From contig CP022585.1 in assembly GCA_002243285.1 (NCBI GenBank), positions 1 through 64,000 on the forward strand: a DNA stretch of 64,000 bases. The letters are read 5' to 3'. The position numbers and the translations under genes were made by a program. This DNA comes from Candidatus Fluviicola riflensis. GTDB lineage: Bacteria; Bacteroidota; Bacteroidia; Flavobacteriales_D; Crocinitomicaceae. Each line of letters begins with the position of its first letter. Positions within the stretch are counted from its first letter, which is position 1. Positions 48,036 to 55,706 of the stretch are shown one piece after another. The notes under the pieces are model-generated. The model saw only the letters and a program-made list of their open reading frames with translations, did no database searches and had not been told where the DNA came from.

Positions 48036-51000
48036 ATGATTACACGTGTTCTATTGCCGCTTTTCGCTTTTCTCTTACTGCTTCCCGTCTCCGGTTTGTC
48101 GCAGGTAGTGATCAACGAATATTCCTGTTCAAATATGAACGGTCCGACAGACGCTTTCGCTGAACGGGAAGATTGGATCGAATTATACAATACCTCCGCC
48201 ACAGCTGTTGATTTGACCGGTTATTACCTGTCGGATAATGACAACAATCTTACCAAATGGCTTATTCCTTCAGGATCAATTCCTGCGAATGGTTATAAAA
48301 TGGTATACTGTTCAGGTCGGGATTTGGTGTCGGGAACACAATATCATCCAAATTTTAAATTGACGCAAACTGAAGGTGATTGGATTATTTTGACGCTTCC
48401 GAACGGAAACGTATTGGATTCCATTCAAATTGTACACATGACGAAAGGAGATCACTCGGTAGGGCGTTCTACAAACGGTGCAATTGACTGGAAATTATTT
48501 ACAACCCCAACACCCAATGCAGCCAATACCGGAGCAGTTGATTTTTATACAGCTACGCCGGTTTTCGATATTGCTCCCGGATTTTACGCCGGTGCTCAAA
48601 GTGTAACCATTACATGTCCTGATGTTACGGCAACTATTCGTTATACAACAGACGGATCGGTTCCTACAGCAGCGTCTACGCTTTATGCCGGACCTGTCAA
48701 TATTGCAGCAACTACTGTTTTACGCGCACGTGCTTTCTCGGCGAATTTGACAAGTTTTACCCAATCAGGGACTTATTTTATTAATGTAAATCATACCGTA
48801 CCTGTTGTTTCAGTTGCTGGTGCTGGTGGTGGAAGCGTTGCCTCATTACTTGCCGGTACCCAGGTCACGCCTCAGGGATTCTTCGAATTGTGGGAGGACG
48901 ATCAGACATTGGCCGGAAAAGGCGAAGGTGAATTCAACAAACATGGAAATGATTCCTGGGCATACGATCAACGCGGTTTCGACTACATCATGCGTGATGA
49001 ATTCGGTTACAACAATGATATTTCTCACCAGATTTTCCCGGAAACACCCAGAGATAATTTCCAGCGACTCATTCTGAAGCCGGGAGCCAGTGATAACTTT
49101 CCGTTTGAAACAGGTGGTGCGCATATCCGGGATGCTTTTATTCACACGCTTTCGCAAAAAGCTGACATGAAATTGGACGAACGTACCTGGAGACCTTGCG
49201 TGGTTTACCTGAATGGCCAGTACTGGGGTGTTTATGAAATTCGTGAAAAAGCAGATGATGCCGATTACACAGAGTTTTATGCGGATCAGGATAAGTATCA
49301 CTTATACTACCTCAAAACATGGGGCGGAACCTGGGAAGATTACGGTGCGCCGAATGCAGCAGCCGACTGGAATGCCTTGAGAAATTACATCAACACCAAT
49401 AACATGGGTGTTCAGGCCAATTTTGATTATGTTGACAGTCAGCTTAACTGGGAATCGTTGGTGGATTATTTCGTCATCAACTCGTATACCGTAAATCAGG
49501 ACTGGCTGAACTGGAACACTTCATGGTGGCGTGGAACCGATCCGTTGGGTGACAAGAAAAAATGGCGTTACTCCCTTTGGGATATGGATGCAACTTTCGG
49601 ACACTACTTTAATTACACTAACATTCCGGATGATTCGCCATCCGCTGACCCTTGTAATGCTGAAAATTTACCTGATCCGGGTGGACAAGGGCATACCGAG
49701 ATTTTATCGAAGCTAATTGCTGAAAATCCGGTAGTAGAACAATATTATATTGCGCGTTATTCCGATTTGGTAAACACCTATTTATCATGTGATTACATGA
49801 ATTTCTTGTTGGATAGTATGATCAACGAAATCCAACCTGAAATGGCACAACATGCTACCAGATGGGGCGGGTCTTACGCAACATGGCAGACTAACGTACA
49901 AACATTGCGCGACTTTATCGATGATCGTTGTGTTGAATTGACACAAGGGATGATCGATTGCTATGAATTGGAAGGACCTTATAACCTGGTAGTAGATGTT
50001 TCTCCGGCAGGTGCGGGAGAAGTAAAAGTGAACTCTGTTTGGGCGCCGACTTATCCATGGTCAGCTACCTATTTCGGAGGAATTAACACCAATTTTGTAG
50101 CACAGGCAAATGTCGGTTATGTATTCGATCATTGGGAATATACTACCGGACCAATGCTGCAAGCCATAGGCGAGGATACCAATGCAATGCAACTGGCTGG
50201 TCCTGAAAATGTGGTAGCCGTATTCGTGGCTGACAATCCGGATCTGGATGGTGACGGTGTTTTGAACGTGGATGAGGTGGCCAATGGTACCGATCCGAAT
50301 AACCCGGATACGGACGGTGACGGTGAAAGCGACGGTGTTGAAACCGGAGCAGATCCTGCAAATCCGATTGATACGGATGGTGACGGAATTATTGATCCAT
50401 TGGATTCGTCGATTTTGGATGCTGATAATGATGGCGTAAATGACGAAACTGACCCTGCAAATACTGACCCGTGTATTCCAAATCCGAACGCCGGCCCTTG
50501 TGACCAGGATGGTGATGGTTTGACGAACGCTGAAGAAGCTACCGAAGGTACAAGTCCAACCAACCCGGATACGGATGGTGATGGAATTAACGACGGCGAT
50601 GAAGTAACAGCCGGTACTGATCCGTTAGATCCATGTGATCCACCAAACGCTTCACCTGGTTGTAATATTGATACGGATGGTGATGGCTTATTGGATACTC
50701 AGGAAACATTGATCGGTACAGATCCAAACAATCCTGATACGGATGGTGACGGAATCGCAGACGGTGTTGAAGTAACAAGCGGTACAAACCCATTGGATGA
50801 CTGTGATCCGAATCCGGTTGGAGATGATTGCTTCAACGGAATTTTCATGCCAACCGGTTTTTCTCCGAATGGCGATGGATTGAATGATTATCTCAGCCCT
50901 AAAGTGGGGAATAATGTTGTGAAATTCACATGGTTCCTATACGATCGTTGGGGTAACCGAATGGTGATGTCATCAGATCCGGCATTCAAATGGGATGGAA

Positions 51001-51110
51001 ACTTTAACGGAGTAAGAGTAAATTCCGGAGCTTATGCTTACATGCTTGAAGTAGAATATACAGACGGTAAGAAAGAAACACTTTCCGGCAACGTTACAGT
51101 AACAAGATAA
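48036..51110 (+). CDS. Giant T9SS cargo: lamin-tail, CotH-kinase, TSP3 repeats, type B sorting domain
   Basis: Secreted protein of 1024 residues. Order: signal peptide 1-22; lamin-tail domain about 24-150 ([36 protein letters not shown]); chitobiase C-terminal-like domain about 185-245; CotH kinase-like domain about 270-640 ([52 protein letters not shown]); a repeat domain about 655-725; calcium-binding thrombospondin type 3 repeats about 735-935 with many DTDGDG words; and a gliding-motility-associated type B T9SS domain about 940-1024 ([12 protein letters not shown]). CotH kinases phosphorylate spore-coat proteins in Bacillus; the target here is unknown. The PorP/SprF gene follows after three bases. 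Confidence 0.92.
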
Positions 51111-51113
51111 GTT

Positions 51114-52151
51114 ATGAAACGCTGGATAATTGGAACAATAATGGGTCTTGGGTCAGCCGTTGGCTGGTCCCAGGATCTTCATTTCTCACAAGTATTGCAA
51201 TCGCCGGTATTGCTGAATCCGGGTGCTACCGGTGTTTACGACGGCTGGGAACGCATTACCCTGCACCACCGCAATCAATGGTTAGGTGCTAACACACAAT
51301 TCATGTCAACGGCATTTGCAGCGGAAGCTACATTCTTGAAAAACCCGAAAAAAAATACCGGTTATCTGGGAATGGGCGTTTCATTCTTTAATGATATGGG
51401 TGGTGACGCGAAATTCGGAAATCAATTGGGAGCTTTAACGGTTTCGGGCGTACTTCCAATGGGTGGAGCAGGCCAGCTTTCATTAGGAATTCAGGGTGGT
51501 TTTGGTAACCGAAAAGGTGATATGTCGCGCTTGCTTTATGAAAGTCAGTGGAACGGTTCGGGATTTGATCCTACGATCTATTCGGGTGAAGGTGATGGTT
51601 TAAATTCATTCAGTTATGCTGATGTTTCAACAGGACTTTTCTATCAGTACGATGGTGGATCCTCTACGTTTGCGCGTAACAACGACATGAAATTACAGGT
51701 TGGTTTGGCTGTTTATCATGCCAACGCACCTCAAATGAATTACCGGGCCGGTGGATCAGAACAATTAGCGCGGAAGTATGTCGGTATGGTGAATTATGCC
51801 ATGGACCTTCCGAATACGGAATGGTCGTTTGACGTTCAGTTTGTACAATTCATTCAGGGCGGGCATTACGAAACAATCTTTGGTGGTTTGACCCGCAGAC
51901 GTTTTCAGGAAGGAACCAAAATTACCGGTTACTCGCAAGATGCATCATTTGGTTTTGGAGCGTATGTTCGCATGAAAGATGCCATTATTCCGACAGTTCA
52001 GGTCGATTACAAAGGTTTTCGCTTCGGATTGTCGTATGATCTCATCATCTCCCGCATGCGCAGATCGTATGGTGGTGGAAGTGCCGAATTGTCGGTTAGT
52101 TATACCAACTTGGCTCACGCGCTTTTCAAAGGACGTAGAAAAGGATATTAA
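51114..52151 (+). CDS. PorP/SprF-family T9SS outer-membrane protein
   Basis: Outer-membrane barrel of the PorP/SprF family, 345 residues, signal peptide MKRWIIGTIMGLGSAVGWSQ. The start DLHFSQVLQSPVLLNPGATG and HHRNQWLGAN are hallmarks, and the end FRFGLSYDLIISRMRRSYGG is typical. In Flavobacterium, SprF-like proteins are needed for display of proteins with type B sorting domains, so this is likely the dedicated anchor or chaperone of the CotH-type protein just upstream (three bases). Confidence 0.93.
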   Translation: MKRWIIGTIMGLGSAVGWSQDLHFSQVLQSPVLLNPGATGVYDGWERITLHHRNQWLGANTQFMSTAFAAEATFLKNPKKNTGYLGMGVSFFNDMGGDAKFGNQLGALTVSGVLPMGGAGQLSLGIQGGFGNRKGDMSRLLYESQWNGSGFDPTIYSGEGDGLNSFSYADVSTGLFYQYDGGSSTFARNNDMKLQVGLAVYHANAPQMNYRAGGSEQLARKYVGMVNYAMDLPNTEWSFDVQFVQFIQGGHYETIFGGLTRRRFQEGTKITGYSQDASFGFGAYVRMKDAIIPTVQVDYKGFRFGLSYDLIISRMRRSYGGGSAELSVSYTNLAHALFKGRRKGY

Positions 52152-52260: not shown

Positions 52261-52458
52261 ATTTCATAGTTTCATGCTCAACTGTCATTCCCGTAAGGAC
52301 GCGATATAGTAACACGTAGATCACCCAACTCAACATCCGTCCCGTAGACGGGACACCCCATCACACAGAATATCTCACCCCAACGAGGCGAAATACAAGG
52401 TAAAGATTCTGGTTTTACAATATTGCGTTCCCTACAGGACTATTTTGTAGTTTCACGC
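52261..52458. repeat. Block of degenerate hairpin units bounded by direct repeats
   Basis: The gap 52152-52490 has no gene. Within it, ATTTCATAGTTTCATGC (52261-52277) and ATTTTGTAGTTTCACGC (52442-52458) bound a block with three related units, each with a CCCGTA/CCCTACA core near GGAC: 52289-52301, the hairpin GTCCCGTAGACGGGAC (52339-52354), and 52430-52440. This resembles an eroded array of repetitive extragenic hairpins. Confidence 0.55.
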
Positions 52459-52490
52459 AAGAAAAAAAACAAAAAAGCATCTAACAAAAT

Positions 52491-53222
52491 ATGTGTGGTT
52501 TTCTAAGAAATGGTACTGTTAAAATCAATCAGTTACTTTCCGTTGGGAAAACCATACTGCTATCGATCTCTTTTTTCGCAACATTTTCCCTGACCGCACA
52601 AACTGATTGGAACGTTTCTTTCAAGCCAATGATGGAGAAGCAACCCTTGGTCCTGAATCAGATCTATACGATTAAACAAGATACATTTCGCATAGAAACC
52701 TTGCGGTTTTATATTTCCAATATTTCTTTCCTCAACGAAGGCAAAACAGTTTTTACTGAATCAGCAGGTTATCATTTAATCGACGCGGAAGATTCCGCCA
52801 GTTACCAAATCGCATTCTATTCGCCTAAAAAACTGACGTATGACCAAATTCAGTTCAATGTAGGAATCGACAGCGTCACTAATGTGGCCGGTGTAATGGG
52901 TGGCGACCTGGATCCCACAAAAGGGATGTACTGGTCATGGCAAAGTGGCTACATCAACTTCAAACTCGAAGGCTGGAATCCGAAATCTACCGCCCGGAAA
53001 CATGAATTCCAATACCATTTGGGTGGTTACATGACACCTTATTCCGCACTTGGAACCGTTCGGATTATGTTTGATAAAAAGCAATCCAACCATGAAATAA
53101 CGGTTCAATTAGCACTGTTTCTGGAACAATTGAATGTCACCGAATTACCTGCGATTATGTCACCGGGTGATCGGGCCGTTGAATTATCCGAGATTTTACC
53201 CACGATTTTTTCTGCGAAATGA
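52491..53222 (+). CDS. MbnP-family copper-associated periplasmic protein
   Basis: MbnP-like protein of 243 residues, exported (hydrophobic stretch about 20-36 ending FSLTAQ after a short polar head). Family signs are FRIETLRFYISNISFL, YHLIDAEDSASYQI and the highly typical GGDLDPTKGMYWSWQSGYINFKLEG. In Methylosinus, MbnP binds copper after the partner MbnH oxidises one tryptophan to kynurenine; the tryptophans of WSWQSGY are candidates here. The MbnH-like dihaem gene follows, overlapping by four bases, which is the conserved pairing. Confidence 0.85.
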   Translation: MCGFLRNGTVKINQLLSVGKTILLSISFFATFSLTAQTDWNVSFKPMMEKQPLVLNQIYTIKQDTFRIETLRFYISNISFLNEGKTVFTESAGYHLIDAEDSASYQIAFYSPKKLTYDQIQFNVGIDSVTNVAGVMGGDLDPTKGMYWSWQSGYINFKLEGWNPKSTARKHEFQYHLGGYMTPYSALGTVRIMFDKKQSNHEITVQLALFLEQLNVTELPAIMSPGDRAVELSEILPTIFSAK

Positions 53223-54235
53223 TGAAACGTTTCGCCTTGATTCTGCTATTGGTCATTGTCGGTTTTGCGATGATGAAACCCAAAAAAGATCCGGTGATTC
53301 ACGTGCCGAAAGGTTGGCCTAAACCGGCCTATGATTTCAAAAAAAATCCACTCGACGAATCCACAATCGAATTGGGAAGACAGTTGTTTTATGATCCGGT
53401 TTTGTCACGCAATAACCAGGTTTCGTGCGCCAGCTGTCATTTGCAGCAAACAGCTTTCACTCACATCGATCATGCACTGAGCCATGGTATTGATGACCGC
53501 ATCGGGAATCGCAATTCACCTGCATTGGTCAACCTGGCCTGGAGTAAATTATTTATGTGGGACGGAGCGGTTAATCACCTCGACGTTCAGGCATTGGCAC
53601 CAATAGAAAATCACCTGGAAATGGATGAGAAAATTGCGAATGTGGTGCGCAAACTGCAAGCTTCCAAAACCTATCGCGGGCGGTTTTTTAATGCTTTTGG
53701 CGATAGTACCGTTACCGGCGAACGAACCCTGAAATCCATTTCGCAATTCCTGCTGACACTCGTAAGCACCAATTCCAAATACGACCAGGTGATGCGAAAG
53801 GAAAAAGGTATTCAATTCAGCGAATCGGAGCAAAAAGGATATCTGCTGTTTAAAAAGCACTGCGCGTCTTGCCACACGGAACCACTTTTTACCAACGGAT
53901 TATTTGAAAACAACGGCCTTGAACCAGATTCAACACTCAACGACATCGGAAGAATGAGTATTACACGCCGAAGTTCCGATTCACTCAAATTTAAAGTCCC
54001 GACGCTCCGGAATATTGAGCGTTCGCCTCCTTACATGCATGACGGTCGGTTCCGGAATTTGCAAATGGTGTTATTTCACTATAGTAACGGAATTCATACT
54101 TCACCGACACTCTCTGTACAGCTCAAAAACGGTATTGCATTAAACGAACAGGAAAAAGGGTCAATAATTGCCTTTTTAAAAACGCTCACGGATACTGATT
54201 TTCTGATGAATCCGAAGTATGGTTACCCCAAGTGA
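53219..54235 (+). CDS. MbnH-like dihaem cytochrome c peroxidase-family enzyme
   Basis: Dihaem protein of 338 residues with an N-terminal export signal (RFALILLLVIVGFAMM). Haem c sites are CASCH at 70-74 (QVSCASCHLQQTAFT) and CASCH at 215-219. A tryptophan-containing stretch NLAWSKLFMWDG lies between them, where MbnH/MauG-type proteins relay electrons between haems. In known MbnH the enzyme uses peroxide-level oxidants to modify a tryptophan of MbnP. The tight overlap with the MbnP gene supports this role over a simple peroxidase. Confidence 0.88.
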   Translation: MMKRFALILLLVIVGFAMMKPKKDPVIHVPKGWPKPAYDFKKNPLDESTIELGRQLFYDPVLSRNNQVSCASCHLQQTAFTHIDHALSHGIDDRIGNRNSPALVNLAWSKLFMWDGAVNHLDVQALAPIENHLEMDEKIANVVRKLQASKTYRGRFFNAFGDSTVTGERTLKSISQFLLTLVSTNSKYDQVMRKEKGIQFSESEQKGYLLFKKHCASCHTEPLFTNGLFENNGLEPDSTLNDIGRMSITRRSSDSLKFKVPTLRNIERSPPYMHDGRFRNLQMVLFHYSNGIHTSPTLSVQLKNGIALNEQEKGSIIAFLKTLTDTDFLMNPKYGYPK

Positions 54236-54258
54236 GGGAAATAAATATAAATTAAAAG

Positions 54259-55566
54259 ATGAGTATGAAAAAGCTAGGTTTGATGTTAGCAGGGTTTAGT
54301 GGCTTCGCGGTGTATGCCCAACCCGAGATTGAAAATTGGTTGATGAATCAGGGAGAATACGCCAGTTATTGGGAAAATACGGGCGGTGGTCCGGGTAATC
54401 CGGATAATTTTGTGTTTAGCACAAGCACCGTTCTCGCCAATGTGACACGGGTTTGTTATAACAGTACCTACGTTTGGGTAGAATCGGATGGGATGACCAC
54501 CAACATGGGACAATTCCTGAATCCAGGTGCACCAACCGAACAAAATTACACCTATCGTTTTCCCCGAACTCCAACTGTTCCTGCCAGCAAAACTGGTTCT
54601 CCTTATGTGGGTTCCATCGGTTTGTTGAACAATGGCGTTCCGGTATACGGTTTGTCAAATGCACATTATTACAACGGTTCCGATAACAATGGGAATGGGA
54701 CCGGAACATGGAATGTGGAAGTTTATTTAGCAGAAGGTTTCGTGCTTGATTCAACCCTGGGCGCGCATCCTCAGCAGCAAGGAGCTTACCACAGCCATGC
54801 CAAACCGTATAGGTTATATTCCACAACACCAGAAACCGAGCATTCACCGATCGTTGGATATGCATTCGATGGCTACCCGATTTATGGACCCTACGGATAT
54901 ACCACAGCGATGAACGCATCAAGTGGCATTTCGCGTATGAAAACCGGATATGGATTGCGCAATATTACTACGCGTACCACATTACCTGATGGAAGTAGTC
55001 TGAGTGCAGCGGATTACGGCCCGGACGTGAGTGTAACTTATCCGATTGGCACCTACATTGAAGATTATCAGTGGTCGGCTGCCAATGGTGGGGATTTGGA
55101 TGAGTACAACGGACGTTTTTGCGTAACACCCGAATATCCTGGTGGTACGTACGCCTATTTCGTAACGATTGATGCCAACGGAACACCAGAGTTTCCTTAC
55201 TATATCGGAACGGAATATTACGGTGCGCCTGAAGTAGATGATATCACGATGGGAGCAACTATTACCGTTCCATCTTCCGGAGTGAGTTGTTTCACCGATC
55301 CGCTTTCGGTGAATGAAGCTGCGCAAAAAGAAACCATTTTGGTAGCTCCAAATCCGTCGAATGGTGTGTTTAACCTTCAATTACCGAATGTTTCCGGGAG
55401 CACAACGGTTGAAATTTACACTGCTGCAGGTCAGCAAATCTTCGTTCAAACCATCACAACAAATGAGTTGTTGATTGATCTTTCTACTCAAAACAATTCA
55501 GGCGTATTGTTGCTGAAAGTCACCAATAATGGTCAATCCTATTATTCGAAAATCGCTTTGAAGTAA
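54259..55566 (+). CDS. YHYH-domain protein with T9SS sorting domain
   Basis: Secreted protein of 435 residues with a signal peptide (MKKLGLMLAGFSGFAVYAQ from the second ATG at 54265). The main domain is of the YHYH type: GAYHSHAKPYRL here carries YHSH in place of the literal YHYH, followed by HSPIVGYAFDGYPIYGPYGY and YNGRFCVTPEYPGGTYAYFV. A type A T9SS domain covers about 362-435 (LVAPNPSNGVFNLQL to VTNNGQSYYSKIALK). It lies 24 bases after the MbnH-like gene and ends in a terminator, making a three-gene unit. The histidines suggest metal binding. Confidence 0.85.
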   Translation: MSMKKLGLMLAGFSGFAVYAQPEIENWLMNQGEYASYWENTGGGPGNPDNFVFSTSTVLANVTRVCYNSTYVWVESDGMTTNMGQFLNPGAPTEQNYTYRFPRTPTVPASKTGSPYVGSIGLLNNGVPVYGLSNAHYYNGSDNNGNGTGTWNVEVYLAEGFVLDSTLGAHPQQQGAYHSHAKPYRLYSTTPETEHSPIVGYAFDGYPIYGPYGYTTAMNASSGISRMKTGYGLRNITTRTTLPDGSSLSAADYGPDVSVTYPIGTYIEDYQWSAANGGDLDEYNGRFCVTPEYPGGTYAYFVTIDANGTPEFPYYIGTEYYGAPEVDDITMGATITVPSSGVSCFTDPLSVNEAAQKETILVAPNPSNGVFNLQLPNVSGSTTVEIYTAAGQQIFVQTITTNELLIDLSTQNNSGVLLLKVTNNGQSYYSKIALK

Positions 55567-55585
55567 AGTAGGTTTAAAGACGAGA

Positions 55586-55619
55586 AACCTGATAGCTATT
55601 TTGGTTATCAGGTTTTTTT
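55586..55619 (+). terminator. Terminator after the YHYH gene
   Basis: AACCTGATA (55586-55594) pairs with TATCAGGTT (55606-55614), nine base pairs, loop of 11, then a T run to 55619. Confidence 0.92.
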
Positions 55620-55706
55620 ATTCCCCAATTATGGATCACAAATCCTTTCAAACTAAACCGATTTATAATCTTTCGCAACTCGTTCGTTTTTCCCAATTAA
55701 AGACAT

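Follow-up and report, generated by a model that had tools for sequence, protein, structure and literature searches.

Candidatus Fluviicola riflensis, a member of the Bacteroidota, carries three adjoining plus-strand genes at positions 52491-55566 of the stretch analysed here (the first 64,000 nucleotides of contig CP022585.1, referred to below as the window). They encode an MbnP-family protein, a di-haem enzyme of the MbnH/MauG type and a YHYH protein that ends in a sorting domain of the type IX secretion system (T9SS). A sequence-only reading of the window had assigned these families and coordinates; the coordinates hold, matches to Pfam and NCBIfam profiles bear out the families, and the observation of the trio in the window is confirmed. 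The first two genes share an ATGA, in agreement with the four-base overlap described earlier, and the YHYH gene directly follows the MbnH-like gene, at a distance of 23 bases counted from the MbnH-like stop codon rather than the 24 first given. The terminator proposed to close the unit also stands, as the segment 55570-55625 has a folding energy of -20.4 kcal/mol (z -5.2), a value that none of 200 shuffled sequences equalled. It is absent from the list of a consensus scan, the promoter and terminator counts of which equalled the shuffle mean and are uninformative. The features of the locus are:

52457..52484, plus strand: promoter-like element GCAAG-N16-CATCTAA, 6 nucleotides ahead of the MbnP start codon
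52491..53222, plus strand: MbnP-family protein, 243 amino acids, with an MxWxW motif (M146, W148, W150) and H176
53219..54235, plus strand: MbnH/MauG-like di-haem enzyme, 338 amino acids, with haem motifs C70/C73/H74 and C215/C218/H219, and Tyr288
54259..55566, plus strand: YHYH protein with T9SS type A sorting domain, 435 amino acids (PF14240 at residues 98-309, PF18962 at residues 364-432)
54550..55185, plus strand: YHYH domain, with candidate metal residues D164, H170, H178, H180, D204, D269 and D281
55315..55563, plus strand: T9SS C-terminal sorting domain, residues 353-435, Ig-like fold
55582..55620, plus strand: intrinsic terminator, a long hairpin followed by a U run (z -5.2)

Recurrence of the three genes across Bacteroidota

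The trio is a conserved unit that recurs above chance, and its genes are very probably co-regulated. Its distribution was followed in a family sample of 100 genomes (PF14240 present in 54 and PF20243 in 97), in a class sample of 149 genomes (50 with YHYH), which is the least biased of the sets, and in a sample of named relatives that comprises the best 80 of 537 confirmed YHYH relatives and therefore leans towards one large YHYH clade. Matches of at least 119 bits in the family and class samples were taken with their surroundings, giving 48 stretches each besides the window, and weaker partial matches were left out. YHYH genes were scored as linked when both MbnP and MbnH lay within 4 kb on the same strand, using one profile set and after removal of four duplicate records; as the MbnP and MbnH profiles were built from linked loci, divergent pairs may count as unlinked. 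Among the 181 de-duplicated YHYH records, 118 were linked, 44 were unlinked, eight had one partner and 11 were cut where their contig ends. Of the 50 YHYH records in the class sample, 27 were linked, 20 unlinked, two half-linked and one cut, and of the 51 in the family sample, 34 were linked, 13 unlinked and four cut. Under somewhat different rules, the best 80 of the 537 relatives gave 58 full trios, eight loci with MbnH only, six with neither partner and eight cut. This is the co-occurrence survey proposed by the sequence-only reading, which had named a lack of linkage in other genomes as an argument against itself; with the trio present in 118 of 181 records and in 27 of the 50 in the class sample, linkage is what was found.

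Two gene orders occur among the 118 linked records, with MbnP upstream of YHYH in 107 and YHYH first in 11. Spacing in the 107 loci is tight, with a median of -4 nucleotides between MbnP and MbnH (30 or fewer in 105 loci) and of 46 nucleotides between MbnH and YHYH (110 or fewer in 85). Trios were found in several families of the class; named loci include Neolewinella persica and Chryseobacterium formosus, and others bear the titles Ignavibacteria, Candidatus Kapaibacterium and Saprospiraceae. In a quick tree of 179 YHYH cores, which has several long branches, the window's copy groups, at a support of 100, with three other copies from its genus and one from another family of the class, and all five are linked. 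The linkage label changes 34 times on this tree, compared with 50.6 times in shuffles, none of 500 of which was as low, and nine short copies on one long branch are all unlinked. The genome of another family (G119, locus L284) carries a trio whose YHYH protein shares 79% identity with that of the window, and lateral transfer of that trio is possible. Elsewhere, a single contig (L093 of G079) encodes two MbnP-MbnH pairs with YHYH beside one only, and the YHYH gene of L090 (G057) is interrupted by an in-frame TGA and reads as two frames. A literature search, outside which a 2021 PNAS paper on MbnP lay, returned no recognisable report of YHYH together with MbnP or MbnH.

Folds and conserved residues of the three proteins

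The window's MbnP matches PF20243 with an E-value of 7.7e-46 (156.8 bits, cut-off 27); the cut-off of the NCBIfam family TIGR04052 was reached in none of 60 class genomes. An AlphaFold2 model built on 49 of 71 non-redundant sequences (pLDDT, a per-residue confidence score, 90.6) best matches 7l6g, the MbnP of Methylosinus trichosporium (Z 17.6, root-mean-square deviation 2.9 over 205 residues, 17% identity), and the next structure scored Z 4.5 in a second pass over the Foldseek top 1000. As modelled, the protein thus has the MbnP fold. PDB sequence searches with the window's MbnP and with alignment A2 gave no match, and 7l6g was reached by fold and by profile A7. W148, W150 and H176 are invariant in all 49 aligned sequences, the window's included, and 7l6g reads MAWNW and His at the aligned positions (profile A7, made from ten other MbnP relatives). 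Likewise, MbnP records in YHYH loci read MYWxW in 78 of 90 cases and WxW in 89, and 28 of the 30 best-scoring MbnP pairs of the family (L031-L060) read MFWxW. Two MbnP paralogues of the window genome (L109 and L110) read MHWGW, and that of L109 has a T9SS-like tail and two adjoining MbnH-like genes.

The MbnH-like protein matches the CCP_MauG family PF03150 with an E-value of 2.9e-52, and its top NCBIfam match is the MbnH family TIGR04039 (207.5 bits versus 175.3 for MauG). In the PDB it matches 6e1c, titled ‘Di-heme enzyme’ and presumably the MbnH of M. trichosporium, at E 6e-37. The residues of its two CxxCH motifs (C70, C73, H74, C215, C218 and H219) are invariant in 16 of 16 sequences (alignment A3), as is Y288, which aligns with a Tyr of 6e1c that we take to be an axial haem ligand. 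Peroxidases have Met at this place; the HMMER alignment with peroxidase 1iqc has a gap opposite Y288 and gives no residue-level comparison with that Met.

Among known systems, the pair comes closest to MbnP-MbnH of M. trichosporium (TIGR04052/TIGR04039, GenProp0940), with which it shares the MbnP fold, the MxWxW motif and His, an adjoining di-haem MauG-like partner and overlapping genes. In contrast to that pair, the window's proteins fall below both NCBIfam equivalog cut-offs, the identity between MbnP and 7l6g is the 17% given above, and a third, T9SS-exported gene and a sigma-type DNA element are present. In addition, the molecule in 7l6g is titled ‘four-Cys motif protein’, whereas the window's MbnP has one Cys in 243 amino acids. 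The MbnP-MbnH pair is conserved far beyond methanobactin producers, according to PMC3621798. No account was found of what it does beyond methanotrophs, and the functions given to YHYH in the literature found are predictions only.

The third protein matches PF14240 with an E-value of 9.3e-44 (150.1 bits, cut-off 25), and its tail matches Por_Secre_tail PF18962 (E 3.9e-8) and TIGR04183 (42.2 bits, cut-off 23). Searches of the PDB and VIA with the full YHYH model (from a choice of 54 sequences) returned Ig-like domains aligned to the T9SS tail at residues 353-435, with the T9SS cargo tails 8qb1_A (Z 10.2) and 8glk_D (Z 9.7; Foldseek rank 1) tied with the Ig-like DUF3244 protein 3sd2 (Z 10.8). A T9SS-type tail profile made from linked family copies matches 122 of 122 raw linked records and 35 of 44 unlinked ones, and with the TIGR04183 score above its cut-off, the export signal claimed for this protein is upheld.

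The seven candidate metal residues of the YHYH domain are invariant in 118 of 118 linked copies and equally in 34 of 34 unlinked copies of the same clade, suggesting that the metal site, if there is one, is not tied to linkage. The YHSH motif, which the sequence-only reading had singled out, is by the same comparison not a special feature: linked copies read YHHH in 108 cases, YHSH (the window's form) in five, YHTH in three and YHYH in two. A search for Trp, His or Cys positions peculiar to linked copies found nine columns, which are nonetheless present in 13-17 of the 34 unlinked copies and are read as marks of the large clade. The domain also occurs in phage structural proteins, including those of cyanophages, and a 2021 jumbo-phage paper predicts that three of its His and one Asp form a zinc site and that it acts as a metal-dependent hydrolase (PMC7824862). 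Phage and bacterial PF14240 proteins share the domain and its three His and Asp with the window's protein, which differs from the others in its T9SS tail and in adjoining MbnP-MbnH. At two loci (L123:4358-12158 and L246:4273-11140), unlinked YHYH genes are lined up with genes for T9SS multicopper oxidases, a sulfatase and thioredoxin-like proteins.

A sigma-factor module and a shared DNA element

Two further components, a sigma-factor module and the element at 52457-52484, had been overlooked in the sequence-only reading. In many loci, MbnP is preceded by a row of genes encoding an extracytoplasmic function (ECF) sigma factor, a protein of about 90 amino acids with one hydrophobic stretch and a membrane-anchored protein of about 150 amino acids. 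The sigma gene and the putative sensor gene, the last of the row, lay within 5.5 kb of YHYH in 58 of 118 linked records, four of 44 unlinked and two of 11 cut. Two sigma representatives were scanned and both exceeded the TIGR02937 cut-off, and the sigma factor of the window genome (L085:8137-8715) scored 103.5 bits against a cut-off of 42.9. Its anti-sigma-like neighbour has 93 amino acids, one hydrophobic stretch by eye and no family match over cut-off. The window genome's putative sensor reached 25.5 bits against PF13801, under the cut-off of 29.2, and two others were scanned without a match. In the PDB, sensor profile A6 matched NccX (4clv, E 4.9e-4), Spy (3oeo, E 3.8e-3) and CnrX (3zg1, E 5.3e-3), as well as the CpxP/Spy-like 5ihf, the matches to NccX and CnrX extending over almost the full length. 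The row resembles the CnrYXH and NccYXH arrangements of Cupriavidus in combining an ECF sigma factor, a protein of about 90 amino acids with a single hydrophobic stretch and a membrane-anchored, putative sensor of about 150 amino acids. It differs from them in the weak similarity of that protein, in the gene order (here sigma, anti-sigma-like, sensor) and in its targets.

In the window genome, the sole sensor match (C1:3856508-3856972) lies far from the window, in a row of sigma, anti-sigma-like and sensor genes followed by a second YHYH gene (L085). In two genomes of the same genus, G010 and G096, a pair of YHYH genes is clustered with MbnP, MbnH and the module (L067 and L072), which is there of the type termed antiB. 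The locus is split in the window genome. The module may also have another target: at L295:915-3029 of genome G038, where it comprises sigma, anti-sigma-like and sensor genes and has the element described below, the next gene encodes a secreted protein with a single CxxCH in the portion covered, and no YHYH occurs in that stretch.

A count of word pairs before sigma genes placed GCAAG..CATCT, present in eight sequences, in a tie for first with another pair, and the pair was then spotted by eye before the window's MbnP, a sequence outside that count. The full form, GCAAG-N16-CATCTAA, is present at exactly two places in the 4.55 Mb genome, 52457-52484 (6 nucleotides before MbnP) and 3855590-3855617 (18 nucleotides before the ECF sigma gene), in each case on the plus strand, and a reversed-motif control has no match. 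This count was not a blind one, since the spacer and final letters were fixed with both sites already in view. The looser GCAAG-N16-CATC precedes 11 of 63 de-duplicated sigma-sensor loci, compared with a mean of 0.07 in first-order shuffles (maximum 2 in 500), and is specific to a spacer of 16, as spacers of 10-15 and 17-22 gave zero or one locus each. By module type, it precedes six of 15 antiA loci, five of 14 without an anti-sigma profile match and none of 34 antiB loci. Across the 100 family genomes, CGCAAG-N16-CATCTAA has 16 matches in 13 genomes (two for the reversed control). Nine lie 6-18 nucleotides before a gene of the system: one precedes the window's MbnP, two precede sigma genes and six precede genes in the anti-sigma position, of which four were recognised by profile and two, encoding 78 amino acids (L298 and L301), by position alone; near-copy pairs among the matches are L286/L287 and L298/L301. 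Three more lie 24-42 nucleotides before genes named by eye as CotH-like, arylsulfotransferase-like and TonB-receptor-like, the CotH-like gene (L292, G051) having the element 24 nucleotides upstream. Among the 30 MbnP-pair loci L031-L060, five of which have YHYH, the looser element matched once, about 0.9 kb from MbnP. Judged from sequence, the full element may be a promoter; as it ends 6-18 nucleotides from start codons, transcripts would then be nearly leaderless. Five same-genus antiB loci (L067, L068, L070, L072 and L107) share another word upstream of sigma, AACTTTT.GTATCAT, which may serve as promoter for the other type of sigma factor.

Just upstream of the trio, the window encodes a PorP/SprF protein (51114-52151; Pfam and NCBIfam), which fits a T9SS organism. 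This gene follows, after three bases, that of a CotH/lamin-tail/TSP3 protein with a T9SS type B tail (the two together at 48036-52151), and the two are likely a cargo-anchor pair. The looser element was not found ahead of this CotH-type gene.

Probable copper handling and competing explanations

On balance, we lean towards reading the locus as a metal-responsive effector cassette of Bacteroidota, the metal being most likely copper. A membrane anti-sigma protein of about 90 amino acids would hold the ECF sigma factor and answer to a periplasmic sensor of the CnrX/Spy type, and the sigma factor would turn on MbnP, MbnH and YHYH. MbnH would then oxidise a tryptophan of the MbnP WxW motif to kynurenine, completing a periplasmic copper site, and the YHYH protein, with a putative metal site of three His and one Asp, would be exported by T9SS to the cell surface. 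Metal exchange between MbnP and YHYH would be the likeliest coupling between the two. In the window genome, where the locus is split, the trio may have kept, or gained, the sigma-type element. Copper handling by the trio is likely, to judge from the relationship of its MbnP. The three-part copper system proposed in the sequence-only reading is partly supported. The conserved three-gene unit (118 of 181 records), the MbnP fold and motif and the T9SS tail stand, as does the DNA element linked to the sigma gene; the YHSH motif is not distinctive, and copper, kynurenine, promoter function, the anti-sigma and sensor roles and metal transfer are inferred.

Several observations weigh against this reading. 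YHYH is unlinked in 44 of 181 records overall and in 20 of 50 in the class sample, and no metal residue is specific to linked copies. The window's MbnP scores 43.3 bits against a TIGR04052 cut-off of 140, and the 207.5 bits of its MbnH-like protein are below the TIGR04039 cut-off of 362.85. The nearest sensors of known metal, CnrX and NccX, respond to nickel and cobalt, and the sensor-family His that aligns with that of CnrX is replaced by Tyr in the window genome's copy. The element is absent from all 34 antiB loci, the type to which same-genus trios with a sigma module belong; among triads without a detected sigma gene (scanned loci, class loci excluded) it occurs in the window only; and four of its 16 family matches fall within other genes or on their antisense strand (L288, L290, L291 and L293).

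The direction in which copper might move also bears on the proposal. The sequence-only reading had YHYH capture copper outside the cell and pass it on; as the metal residues are equally conserved in unlinked copies, such capture is one of several possibilities. Cargo of T9SS crosses the periplasm, so that YHYH could be loaded there by MbnP, ahead of its export, just as readily as it could bring in copper. Loading before export thus merits equal weight with capture outside. The fully specified version, a widespread Bacteroidota pathway in which a metal-sensing sigma factor switches on the trio, the kynurenine site of MbnP is formed by MbnH, copper passes from MbnP to the His3/Asp site of YHYH within the periplasm and the loaded protein is afterwards exported through T9SS, is offered tentatively and is itself unlikely.

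Another explanation is that YHYH acts at the surface as a metal-dependent hydrolase or binds glycans there, and that MbnP-MbnH merely shares its regulator, with no metal passed. We regard this as doubtful but worth serious consideration: the prediction of a His3/Asp zinc site and hydrolase function in PMC7824862, the domain's occurrence in cyanophage proteins and the invariance of the same residues in unlinked copies all favour it, whereas a general hydrolase alone would leave the two gene orders, the linkage in 118 of 181 records and the tight spacing unexplained. It seems improbable that the system senses and handles another metal (nickel, cobalt, zinc or iron). CnrX and NccX point in that direction, and the recurrent neighbour genes were read by eye, without a search aimed at copper genes; against it stand the fold match to the MbnP of M. 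trichosporium, which we take to be a copper protein, and the multicopper oxidases in the two unlinked YHYH loci, an independent though small hint at copper. Copper is also suggested by CorA of methanotrophs, a surface protein that binds copper in a kynurenine-containing site (PMC3912023, in part). The same partial source describes CorA-CorB and MopE-SACCP as copper proteins with a co-transcribed di-haem partner, as proposed here; unlike in the window, no YHYH gene is mentioned for these systems in that part of it. That MbnH has a second substrate, oxidising a Trp or Tyr of YHYH, is very unlikely: W27 and W151 are kept in 117 and 118 of 118 linked copies, but also in 32 and 34 of the 34 unlinked clade copies. 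Chance or a neighbourhood passively inherited by descent is barely credible, for while the samples consist of related genomes, which share neighbourhoods, it is already contradicted by the two gene orders, by trios across several families and by the exact element ahead of both halves of the split locus.

Under the favoured reading of a copper-responsive cassette, a third gene with an export tail and a regulator with a DNA element tie together the puzzles of MbnP-MbnH and of YHYH, which now become testable. The split locus, with one copy of the element ahead of each half, provides a natural experiment on the regulon. If MbnP does load copper, the YHYH protein would be a surface cuproprotein, possibly an oxidase, that is matured before its export.

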